DNA of 64,000 nt from Convivina praedatoris (GTDB lineage: Bacteria; Bacillota; Bacilli; Lactobacillales; Lactobacillaceae). Numbering within the stretch: position 1 is the stretch's first letter; each line of letters starts with the position of its first letter. The notes under the pieces were generated by a model. The model worked only from the letters and a program-made list of their open reading frames with translations, had not been told where the DNA came from and ran no database searches. Of the stretch, positions 24,909 to 62,842 are shown in pieces. The stretch covers positions 124,001 to 188,000 of the forward strand of contig NZ_CAKOET010000002.1 of NCBI RefSeq assembly GCF_933208495.1, written 5' to 3'. Position numbers and translations under genes: made by a program.

Positions 24909-24914
24909 TTTAAT

Positions 24915-25120
24915 GATCGAAGAGGTTGCAACTAAGACTACTAGGTTAACTAAGTCCCTGTGAGGGCGGTGACGTTAACCGAACAGCAAGGTTGCCGAAG
25001 TTTATCAACTATCACAGTAGTCGGTAGGCTGGGGCGTAGCTTAAGAGGCTGCGAACTGTCACAAGTAAATTCTTGTGGGGCGCTTTCGACAATGGAAACC
25101 GATAATAACTAGACGTCATG
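24915..25120 (+). promoter_or_regulatory. Lysine riboswitch (L box) aptamer
   Basis: The leader carries the L-box landmarks in order: AGAGGTTGCAACTAAGACTA near 24920, an internal hairpin arm CCCTGTGAGGG near 24956-24967, AAGGTTGCCGAAGTTTATC near 24987, the GGCTGGGGCGTAGC segment near 25027, a further paired arm CTTGTG/CACAAG near 25060-25076, and a closing GGGGCGC segment. L boxes bind lysine directly and end transcription when lysine is plentiful. Position between a good promoter and lysA, followed by a terminator, fits exactly. Boundaries are approximate. Confidence 0.9.
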
Positions 25121-59703: not shown

Positions 59704-60618
59704 ATGAGTGACACACATGATAATGAGGTGAAACAAAAGCCATATATTATCGGCATTGTAATTAATTTAGTGTTTGTTTTAGCAGAAATAGTTTTTGCTC
59801 AAATTGCACATTCAACAGCGTTATTTGCGGATGCTTTTCATAATTTGAGTGACGTATTGGCTTTGGTAATTGCCTGGTTAGCTGTGGTCGTTTTTGGTTT
59901 ACGAGCGACCAAGCAACATACTTATGGCTGGCATAACGTTTCGATTTTAGCCAGTATTTTTAATGCCCTATTACTGTTAGGGGCTGTGGCAATAATTTTT
60001 TATGAAGGTATTCGAGACCTCTTTTTTGTTACGCCAGAACATACAGCTGGTTGGATTGTTACCGTTGTGGCTGCTATTGGAATTGTGGTTAACTTTTCAA
60101 CAGCGATGCTCTTTAAAATTTCTGGGGGGCCTGACGAGCATGGTCATCACCATGGACAAGATTTAAATGCTAAAACAGCATATTTACATTTACTAGCTGA
60201 TGCTGGTGTTTCTGTTGGGGTTATATTGGCCGGATGGCTAATTCAAATGACCGGTTGGCAAATTATTGATCCAATCGTGTCATTAATCATTGGTGTGATT
60301 ATTTTGGTAACAGCCTGGCCGGTGATGAAGTCCACTTTTAATTTAGCCATTAATGGTGTGCCGGATAATGTTGACGAAGAAGAGATTTATCAATATTTGA
60401 ATCAACACGCGGGAATTCAAGAACTACATGATTTGCATATTTGGCCATTATCGACAACTGAATCAGCTTTGACAGTTCATTTGGCGGTGGAGAATCCAGC
60501 TGATGCTCAAAATATTTTAGAGGACGTAACTGACCAGTTACGGAGTCACTATCATATTTCACATGTCACGATTCAAATTGAGGGGCCTTGGCATGAAACA
60601 AATTGTAATTCGATTTAG
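59704..60618 (+). CDS. Cation diffusion facilitator (Zn/Co/Cd/Mn exporter)
   Basis: CDF antiporter, 304 residues: six membrane segments and a C-terminal cytoplasmic ferredoxin-like domain. Metal-site motifs are HNLSD (FADAFHNLSDVLAL) in segment 2 and HLLADAGVS in segment 5. The His-rich loop DEHGHHHGQD lies between segments 4 and 5. His/Asp in both motifs is the zinc-type pattern (CzcD/ZitB), though Mn or Co cannot be ruled out. C terminus ends WHETNCNSI. AGGAGG site, 21 bases after the SIR2 gene, so it may belong to the same operon. Confidence 0.92.
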   Translation: MSDTHDNEVKQKPYIIGIVINLVFVLAEIVFAQIAHSTALFADAFHNLSDVLALVIAWLAVVVFGLRATKQHTYGWHNVSILASIFNALLLLGAVAIIFYEGIRDLFFVTPEHTAGWIVTVVAAIGIVVNFSTAMLFKISGGPDEHGHHHGQDLNAKTAYLHLLADAGVSVGVILAGWLIQMTGWQIIDPIVSLIIGVIILVTAWPVMKSTFNLAINGVPDNVDEEEIYQYLNQHAGIQELHDLHIWPLSTTESALTVHLAVENPADAQNILEDVTDQLRSHYHISHVTIQIEGPWHETNCNSI

Positions 60619-60724
60619 GTTGGTAAAAATTATTTTATTTTAATAAATTTCGTTTCCTGGCTTAATTCTATTAAAAATGTAATATTGTAATTTATTGTTA
60701 GATAAATGTTGTACCTTTCTTTAC

Positions 60725-60752
60725 TTGACGCGAGCGTAAACTTGTGTATGAT
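60725..60752 (+). promoter_or_regulatory. Promoter of mntH
   Basis: -35 TTGACG (60725-60730), 16-base spacer, -10 TATGAT (60747-60752). The 100 bases before it, after the CDF gene, are AT-rich without a clear terminator. Confidence 0.6.
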
Positions 60753-60758
60753 TATAGA

Positions 60759-60967
60759 TGTACTTAGGCACTGATGGATGGGTTAGGTAGCTTTCATAAG
60801 CTTTCAACAGCCAAGTTGAATGAAATTCTTTATGAAAATTATTTAGCACCGGAATTGTATCTTCTTGTCGCGGTTTTTTTGTTATAAAAAAGTTTGTGAT
60901 GATTAGTGCAACGCCGCGTGTTTTTCTGTTTGTCTTTGTCCTGAGGAGAATTCCAAAGGAGAAGAAT
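60759..60967 (+). other. Long untranslated leader of mntH, possible attenuator
   Basis: About 210 bases separate the promoter from the mntH start. They contain a hairpin TTTCAAC-AGCC-AAGTTGAA (near 60805-60823), a CGCGG-T7 element near 60871, and a downstream CCGCG followed by T-rich bases near 60913-60922 that can pair with it. This suggests mutually exclusive structures. It does not match any metal riboswitch whose consensus I know. Confidence 0.4.
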
Positions 60968-62371
60968 ATGGATAATTCTACACAGGGAAGTCCCCGCAAG
61001 AAACATAGCCTGATTGAGCACACAGGTGAAAAAAGTTTGGAAGAGGTTAACGGAACCATTGAGATTCCTAAAAATGGTTCCTTTTGGCGTCGTTTACTAG
61101 CTTTTTCAGGTCCAGGGGCCTTAGTTGCCGTTGGTTATATGGATCCCGGTAACTGGGTTACATCTGTAGCTGGTGGTGCTGGTTACCGTTACTTGCTTTT
61201 GTCAATTGTTTTAATTTCATCTTTAATTGCCATGTTATTGCAGTATATGGCTGGAAAGCTTGGAATTGTTAAACAAGAAGATTTAGCGCAAGCAACAGGT
61301 AGTCGTACTAATCGGTTCGGCCGGTATACACTTTGGGTTTTTACTGAATTAGCCTTGATGGCCACTGATATTGCCGAGGTTATTGGTGGGGCCATCGCCT
61401 TACACCTACTGTTTGGTTGGCCAATGATTGTGACTGTTTTGCTGACTGCTTTTGATGTTGTGTTGCTATTGCTTCTGATGAAGTTTGGCTTCCGTAAGAT
61501 TGAAGCAATTGTGGCCACTTTGATTTTGACTATTCTAGTCGTTTATGTATACCTAGTGGCTTTGTCACATCCTGATTGGCTGGGGGTATTAGCTGGTTAT
61601 GTACCACAACCCCATGTCCTTTCGACCCATGAGGTGTCCGGTCTTGATTCTCCACTGACTTTGACTGCTGGTATCATCGGAGCCACAGTTATGCCTCATA
61701 ACCTTTATTTGCATTCATCTATTTCACAAACACGTAAGGTCAATCATGAAGATCACGAAGAAGTTCGTGATGCGGTACGCTTGATGACTTGGGATTCTAA
61801 TATCCAGTTGACTTTGGCCTTTGTAATTAATTCATTGCTTTTGATTTTGGGTGCTGCTTTGTTCTATGGACACGGTGCTGATTTGGGATCTTTCGGTGCT
61901 ATGTATCGTGCTTTGCAAGATAATAGTATTGCTGGGGCAATTGCTTCACCAGTCCTTTCAACTTTGTTTGCGGTTGCTTTGTTGGCTTCTGGTCAAAACT
62001 CAACTATTACTGGTACTTTGACTGGTGAAATCGTCATGGAAGGATTCTTACATCTTCGGATTCCAATGTGGCTCCGGCGTGTGGTAACGCGTGGGTTGGC
62101 CTTGTTGCCAGTTGTTGCAGCTACAATTTATTATGGTGGAAATGAAGCGGAATTGGACAAATTGTTGACCAATTCGCAGGTTTTCCTTTCAATCGTATTG
62201 CCATTTTCAATGGCACCATTGATTTACTTTACATCTTCAAAAAAGATTATGGGTGAATTTGCTAATCCTAAGTGGGTTACTTGGTTAGGTTGGATTTGTT
62301 TTACTGTTTTGACCATTATAAATATTTGGATTGTTTATAATTCAGTTACCGATATTTTTGGTTTGAAATAA
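60968..62371 (+). CDS. mntH: Nramp family Mn2+/H+ symporter
   Basis: Divalent metal importer, 467 residues from the ATG at 60968 (AAAGGAG 5 bases ahead); a longer open frame upstream lacks a start signal. Eleven to twelve segments. [19 protein letters not shown] contains the DPGN metal-binding motif of segment 1, and [14 protein letters not shown] the MPH motif of segment 6, both intact. [22 protein letters not shown] is the transport signature. Mn uptake is central to peroxide tolerance in lactobacilli. Cotranscribed with a universal stress protein gene 9 bases downstream. An MntR box was not evident. Confidence 0.96.
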
Positions 62372-62380
62372 GGAGGGGAT

Positions 62381-62842
62381 ATGGATACATTAAATATGGA
62401 TATCGAGCCAAAGCGCTTTCAGCGTATTTTGGTAGGTGTTGATGAATCCGAACAAGGTTATTTTGCCTTGACGAATGCTATTCACCAAGCGCGAGAAGAT
62501 GATTCTCACTTAATTATTGCTACTATTTTAGAAATGGGTGACCTATCAACGATTGATGCCATGCATTTGGATGCAATTAAGGCTAAGCGGGAACAATTAG
62601 AAAGCAACTTAGAAAAGTATCGTAAGTATGCTGAAGAGCGTGGGGTTACTAATGTTGAGGTAGTTTTTGATGACGGTGCAAAAGCTGGAGAAACTCTAGT
62701 TGAAGAAATTGCACCTGAAGTTAAAGCTGACCTAATCGTCGTTGGGGCTCACTCTCATCGTGGATTCTGGCGGTCAATCGGTTCACAAGCCGCTTACATT
62801 GCTCGCAATGCGTCTATTTCAACTTTAATCGTCCGTCAATAA
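62381..62842 (+). CDS. Universal stress protein (UspA family)
   Basis: 153 residues, single Usp domain of Rossmann-like fold. QRILVGVDESEQGYFALTNAI at the N terminus and LIVVGAHSHRGFWRSIGSQAAYIARNASISTLIVR at the end give the G-2x-G-9x-G(S/T)-like ATP loop in altered form: G-AHSHRGFWRSIGS-QA. ATP-binding therefore likely. The AAGGAGGGG site decides the start. Cotranscription with mntH hints that it modulates manganese uptake or the linked stress response (inference). Confidence 0.92.
   Translation: MDTLNMDIEPKRFQRILVGVDESEQGYFALTNAIHQAREDDSHLIIATILEMGDLSTIDAMHLDAIKAKREQLESNLEKYRKYAEERGVTNVEVVFDDGAKAGETLVEEIAPEVKADLIVVGAHSHRGFWRSIGSQAAYIARNASISTLIVRQ

Follow-up and report, generated by a model that had tools for sequence, protein, structure and literature searches.

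Introduction

The yybP-ykoY class (RF00080) is an Mn2+ riboswitch, a leader RNA tied to manganese homeostasis whose consensus loops L1 and L3 bind metal and which controls exporters. An Mn2+-sensing riboswitch has also been reported in the 5' UTR of Salmonella mntH (Shi et al. 2014, as cited in PMC9315381, where it is described as forming a Rho-independent terminator). Elsewhere, the regulatory job at mntH belongs to MntR, a DNA-binding protein of the DtxR family. In a 2013 regulon reconstruction of lactic acid bacteria (PMC3616900), MntR is listed as mosaic in both groups.

Here we describe a leader RNA in front of mntH of Convivina praedatoris, located in a window of 64,000 nucleotides, by which we mean the whole stretch of DNA analysed (assembly GCF_933208495.1, contig NZ_CAKOET010000002.1). 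Judging from sequence comparison, this leader RNA is conserved in Leuconostoc, Weissella and close relatives. The known systems closest to it are yybP-ykoY and the Salmonella mntH riboswitch (PMC9315381). It differs from yybP-ykoY, compared by whole model, in its conserved core and in that its gene encodes an importer instead of an exporter. It shares its target gene with the Salmonella riboswitch, which sets a precedent for controlling mntH through an RNA as well as through MntR, but that bacterium is distant and the two are likened by description only. We consider it rather likely that the leader is a new riboswitch-like translational switch before mntH, probably carrying the manganese control that MntR has elsewhere. 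The publications found on mntH, manganese riboswitches, MntR and DyP in lactic acid bacteria, judged by their titles and the openings of their abstracts, do not describe this RNA.

The leader of mntH in the window

A first-pass annotation had proposed a promoter and a structured leader of about 210 bases ahead of a manganese transporter gene. The protein family matches bear out the identity of the transporter (Table 1). A promoter is also found at the expected place, but a scan of shuffled sequences gives 1.5 promoters expected against 1 found, and the promoter alone is therefore not above chance. As raw counts, TTGAC occurs within 90 nt upstream of the core in 45 of 59 related leaders, and either TTGAC or TTGC in 56 of 59. 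From the putative transcription start to the mntH ATG, the leader measures about 209 nt, and its minimum free energy (MFE) fold of -57 kcal/mol is more stable than those of shuffled sequences (z -2.66; 2 of 200 shuffles equally stable), in line with the structured leader of the annotation. Upstream of the promoter in four relatives (L003, L085, L088 and L089) lie cre-like sequences (for example TGAAATCGTTTACAAA), which may mean control by CcpA.

Table 1. Features of the mntH locus, with positions counted from the first nucleotide of the window
Feature	Position	Strand	Sequence or remark
Cation diffusion facilitator gene, 5' neighbour	59704..60618	+	Upstream neighbour in many relatives too
Predicted sigma-70 promoter	60725..60752	+	TTGACG-16-TATGAT; putative transcription start near 60759
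P0/P1, 5' arm	60763..60782	+	CUUAGGCA..GAUGGAUGGG; from MFE fold and arm coevolution; 60782 common with P2 (MFE versus consensus readings)
P2, core hairpin, 66 nt	60782..60847	+	GUUAGGUA..UUUCAUAAG-C.UUCAAC-AGCCAA-GUUGAA.G..UUUAUGAAA..UAUUUAGC
Variable branch, P3 region	60846..60921	+	Sequence not conserved between groups
P0/P1, 3' arm	60925..60945	+	UCUGUUUGUC .. UG. CCUGAG; ends 9 nt 5' of the Shine-Dalgarno sequence
Shine-Dalgarno sequence of mntH	60955..60961	+	AAAGGAG
mntH, NRAMP Mn2+ transporter, 467 aa	60968..62371	+	Pfam Nramp; NCBIfam NF001923 above cut-off
Universal stress protein gene, 3' of mntH	62381..62842	+	Same order in many relatives

The core hairpin P2

Two covariance models describe the core: R1, built from ten cores, and the wider R2, built from 50 sequences. 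Both span positions 60774-60849 of the window. The R2 alignment was made after removal of identical cores and of the variant second copies L152:4781, L153:2529 and L139:5324, and in it the apical part of L146 and L148 is misregistered by MAFFT. Among the 50 sequences, two-sided changes are found in 12 of the 24 pairs of P2 and in 31 cells, compared with 2.8 pairs and 5.5 cells in shuffles, and none of 500 shuffles reaches these values. Base pairing is retained in 97.3% of the P2 cells. Slid controls stay below P2 on every measure; the nearest one, displaced by +1, gives 6 pairs and 28 cells with only 41.8% of the cells paired. The secondary structure of the leader is thus conserved by compensatory change, as in a cis-regulatory leader.

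The inner part of P2 can be drawn in two ways. The MFE inner fold (UUUCA/UGAAA together with CAGC/GUUG) is rejected, its pair 31-50 being broken in L088. Covariation favours the UUCAAC/GUUGAA inner fold, whose pair 31-46 covaries. The asymmetric internal loop of P2, AAGCU opposite GAAAUYCUU, is conserved, and the apical loop is variable.

The closing helix P0/P1 and the variable branch P3

In the aligned leaders, P0/P1 can pair the 5' end of the transcript with a stretch ahead of the Shine-Dalgarno sequence and thereby enclose P2 and the variable branch. Relative to shuffles, the best duplex between the two arms has a mean z of -1.56, and 23 of 59 leaders reach a rank of 15 or fewer out of 300 shuffles; the duplex of the window is no better than shuffles (104/300). 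Coevolution of the arms was measured by comparing the stability of each leader's own arm pair with that of swapped pairs in 5000 permutations, leaving aside both leaders of g29 and the second copy of L139. The own pairs are more stable in all 51 leaders pooled (37+14; z -9.8, 0/5000) and in the 37 leaders outside the groups WeisA and WeisB (z -6.8, 0/5000). The latter result is retained when swaps are confined within two subgroups (0/5000), and a mid-region control on the same 37 leaders gives 608/5000. The 14 WeisA leaders (z -3.7, 5/5000) and the 5 WeisB leaders (z -3.0, 86/5000) behave in the same way; in the WeisB leaders, P1 closes at a good distance 5' of the ribosome site. WeisA, WeisB, Leuco and Fructo are our own group labels; WeisA also covers two leaders from genus g3, L145 and L147, and genus g2, which provides the 'Fructo' leaders, is perhaps Fructobacillus. 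The structural conservation on which the first-pass annotation had staked its proposal is therefore found in the compensatory changes of P2 as well as in the coevolution of the P0/P1 arms.

The 7-mer CCTGAGG is over-represented, occurring in 12 of 59 leaders versus 0.0 expected from shuffles. In our reading, the CCU of the 3' arm could instead lie opposite the Shine-Dalgarno AGG. The linker pattern AGTDAATA is present in 25 of 59 leaders against 0.8 expected, an excess confounded by ancestry, and the looser pattern AGT[GAT]A[AT]A in 5 of 59 against 6.0 expected.

The annotation had also pointed to a CGCGG-T7 element and a distal CCGCG that could pair in alternative structures. Both elements exist in the window, at 60869-60880 and 60914-60918, respectively, within the P3 region. 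Their pairing finds no support as a functional switch: TGCGG and CCGTG replace them in the sister genome L083, and no equivalent is apparent by eye in the leaders of other groups. Because both elements are changed in L083, pairing there would rest partly on wobble. As far as the alignments indicate, the conserved parts of the leader are the P2 hairpin and the two P0/P1 arms, not CGCGG-T7 and CCGCG.

Distribution and target genes

In the window's family, R1 matches 60 of 397 genomes, belonging to 8 of 40 genera. R2 matches 21 of 28 genomes of genus g18. In a sample of the order, R2 finds 8 of 395 genomes, all belonging to the window's family, and in a sample of the class 1 of 398, the window's own genome; neither sample contains an R2 match outside the family. 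Searches of more than 40 genomes used stricter filters, by which weak matches are lost. When 72 of 80 retained mntH loci from lactobacilli, enterococci, streptococci and others were scanned with R1 at E values up to 1, together with the window, L090 and L091, none of these 72 other loci matched.

A DNA search of 80 relatives gives matches in 11 genomes, the window's own among them. In several other genera the match is a core of about 70 nt with 86-94% identity directly 5' of mntH, and in Leuconostoc carnosum it reaches 83% over 106 nt. Leuconostoc carnosum belongs to genus g16 and Weissella muntiaci to genus g18. Further DNA matches in G019, G044 and G055 do not span the core in a leader context; the one in G044 (L091) was treated as a chance match after its translated frame had been read as atpG-like coding sequence.

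After removal of 33 antisense rows, which reflect the palindrome at the same sites and enter none of the counts, 69 aligned sense rows remain. They represent 65 sites, the duplicates being L153/L108, L152/L113, L002/L102 and L003/L099. Leaders identical in the core and the next 60 nt were also removed, leaving 59 leaders with an assigned start. The position and orientation of the RNA are fixed before functionally linked genes: 67 of the 69 rows lie within 250 nt upstream of mntH, and the other two, L146 and L148, precede a gene for a DyP-type peroxidase that carries both Dyp_perox Pfam domains and TIGR01413. L109 and L123, R1 matches outside the alignment, also precede mntH. The peroxidase arrangement occurs in five Weissella genomes, including G428, G430 and G429, in the last of them in pieces only. 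The genes at the G429 loci (L198 and L199) are broken into rearranged fragments of about 200 bp, apparently through an artefact of the assembly.

In tandem mntH pairs, each copy is preceded by an element; one of the two is strong and its partner is weak or variant (29.8-36.5 bits; L152, L153, L139 and L209). In the elements of two first tandem copies, L152:4781-4855 on the minus strand and L153:2529-2600 on the plus strand, the internal loop and the apical hairpin are replaced (GACUUC..GGCGGACG) and the outer stem is kept. The variant core of these first copies possibly reflects a different specificity.

Two further deviations are seen. A subgroup of genus g18 (L127, L129, L136, L137 and L139) has a four-way-junction leader with the extra conserved segments UUUUCAAUAAAGACCG and GACAGGUUAG..ACCGGUAGAACUCGC and with a P1 that closes far 5' of the ribosome site. 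In genus g29, L149-L151 carry a highly diverged copy 5' of an MntH that is only about 55-58% identical; the stems are rebuilt, and the AGCU / GACA internal loop is kept as judged by eye.

Comparison with known RNA families

At the gathering cut-offs of Rfam 15, no family matches the leader, and the only matches window-wide are a lysine riboswitch and a tRNA elsewhere. The lysine riboswitch (RF00168) lies at 24912-25094 on the plus strand and scores 91.7 bits. The same search of 14 loci returns three tRNAs only. With E values up to 10, three weak rows appear on the leader, namely STnc370 sRNA, SNORA54 snoRNA and TCL6_2 lncRNA, none of them plausible. No RF00080 row is obtained for 60600-61000 at E up to 10, and 0 of 66 family genomes match RF00080 at E up to 0.001 under the stricter filters, with which the control genomes of E. 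coli, B. subtilis and Caulobacter do match. By whole-model match the leader is therefore not a yybP-ykoY element, in agreement with the first-pass annotation. The further proposal of that annotation, a new structured regulatory RNA before mntH, finds good support in the covariation, the gene association and the absence of Rfam matches.

Lacto-usp RNA (RF01710) has no match in the window's own genome, nor in the control genomes, and the Rfam searches of the window and the leader give none. For 6S RNA (RF00013), the window's genome has a sub-threshold candidate away from the leader, at G000:C9:7957-8142 (L096), which scores 27.7 bits against a cut-off of 46.4 and has a Usp-like coding stretch just 3' of it (tblastn 32%); the leader is therefore unlikely to be 6S RNA.

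The RNA and MntR-type repressors

MntR-type repressors were surveyed in 66 family genomes of our choice, all of which encode MntH relatives (66/66). They comprise 26 of the 60 R1-positive genomes and 40 unmatched ones, of which 33 come from other genera and g3 and 7 are R2-negative genomes of g18. PF02742, the C-terminal domain of DtxR/MntR, is found in 6 of the 26 genomes with the RNA versus 33 of the 40 without it (Fisher p 2e-6, uncorrected for ancestry). Conversely, the domain is missing from 20 of 26 genomes with the RNA, as it is from the window's own genome, and from 7 of 40 without the RNA. This contrast between genomes with and without the RNA is confounded by shared ancestry. Within g18, PF02742 is present in all 7 tested genomes without the RNA and in 3 of 8 with it. 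Because most of the tested genomes with the RNA are without an MntR-type domain, the RNA probably carries control of manganese homeostasis.

PF02742 genes adjoin mntH in G266 and G019. In G266, where mntH is 73% identical to that of the window and no element is detected even at E up to 10, the PF02742 gene is adjacent and divergent. The short upstream region of this mntH contains the palindrome AACCTAGTATAGGTT, which we read as a possible operator.

Predicted coupling to the Shine-Dalgarno sequence and a proposed switching model

Folding predictions couple P0/P1 to the ribosome-binding site. When the 5' arm is blocked in the 59 leaders, the mean predicted accessibility of the Shine-Dalgarno sequence falls from 0.56 to 0.30, compared with 0.41 to 0.39 in shuffled leaders (6 per leader). 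The mean drop is 0.262 versus 0.012 in shuffles, and a drop larger than 0.1 is predicted for 41 of 59 leaders versus 22% of shuffles. By group, this clear drop occurs in 6 of 14 WeisA leaders, 5 of 6 WeisB leaders (including the second copy of L139) and 30 of the remaining 39, where a single leader shows a rise instead. For the window leader, the change from 0.38 to 0.27 is small. The expression platform thus appears as a predicted Shine-Dalgarno coupling across relatives that is weak in the window itself.

We propose that the mntH mRNA of the Leuconostoc-Weissella clade starts with a cis-acting, riboswitch-like RNA. P2 and the variable P3 would be seated on P0/P1, formed by ~20 nt at the start of the transcript and by a ~20-nt segment that, in most groups, lies shortly 5' of the Shine-Dalgarno sequence. 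Closure of P0/P1 would leave the ribosome-binding site free. Opening of P0/P1 would set free the 3' arm, which together with the sequence around it would bury the Shine-Dalgarno sequence. In this way, the RNA would set the translation of MntH and, in some Weissella, of the DyP peroxidase.

The signal would be metal status, and the gene context makes Mn2+ the first and most likely candidate. The predicted polarity, in which the closed state is on, is not the obvious choice for an importer repressed by Mn2+. For Mn2+ to exert feedback on the importer, it would have to shift the RNA towards the open, off state, which inverts the logic of yybP-ykoY at mntP. Alternatively, the closed state may sense a call for more manganese and peroxidase, for example through Fe2+ or an oxidant. 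Manganese import and the removal of peroxide are linked by oxidative stress, and a common signal for mntH and the DyP peroxidase gene is therefore plausible. The metal- or stress-responsiveness suggested by the first-pass annotation fits these two targets and the fact that an MntR-type domain is often missing.

Alternative explanations

The leader might instead be a site for a protein, such as an RNA-binding regulator, an RNase or a chaperone, or a thermodynamic sensor of pH, temperature or Mg2+, acting on the translation of mntH or the stability of its mRNA. The shape of P2, a long rod interrupted by a single conserved asymmetric internal loop, is frequent in protein sites, and the apical loop and P3 vary freely. 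The coevolution of P0/P1 with a stretch 5' of the ribosome-binding site is, in contrast, typical of riboswitches, although a protein-controlled leader could look alike. We regard such a site or sensor as fairly unlikely.

Transcription attenuation, in which the variable branch would act as an intrinsic terminator competing with the folded leader, is improbable. Terminator-like hairpins are predicted in 8 of 59 leaders versus 5% of shuffles, 7 of these 8 being among the 12 'Fructo' leaders, and the CGCGG-T7 of the window would suit such a role. However, 51 of the 59 leaders, including that of the window, have no such hairpin, and a separate terminator scan of the window returns 0. Attenuation is hence rejected as the general mechanism; it is at most a local variant that may act in some leaders.

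A conserved leader peptide is very improbable: its frame is uninterrupted in 38 of the 53 distinct cores (3 of the 53, which have no anchor, were left unread) and follows an ATG in the window, but no start codon is conserved, the ATG being replaced by ATA in the sister L083, 12 of the 53 cores contain in-frame stops, core length ranges from 72 to 81 nt, and the changes on either side of the P2 stem preserve pairing. Just as improbable is a DNA element, either an operator palindrome or an insertion remnant; the core is an inverted repeat whose antisense strand also scores weakly, but at the sites listed with both strands the sense score exceeds the antisense score by about 11 to 77 bits, the element has a single orientation and a single place upstream of the gene, and G-U pairs of P2 are maintained (U-G in 44 of 50 sequences and G-U in 48 of 50) even though they are mismatched on the other strand. 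Because these G-U pairs are kept, the core varies in length and in-frame stops interrupt some cores, P2 is taken to be an RNA element, not DNA or peptide.

Significance for manganese homeostasis

Lactic acid bacteria hold very high levels of manganese as a defence against oxidants. The literature found gave no answer as to how manganese uptake is controlled in those members of the clade that have no MntR-type repressor. The conserved riboswitch-like RNA at mntH offers a concrete and testable answer, in which an RNA apparently takes the place of a repressor protein. More tentatively, a new riboswitch class sensing metal, either Mn2+ or Fe2+, may have replaced MntR at mntH in the Leuconostoc-Weissella clade and, in Weissella, may also have recruited the DyP peroxidase into the same metal/oxidant regulon. 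If the RNA binds metal, it would represent a new class of metal riboswitch with an unusual regulon of an importer and a peroxidase.
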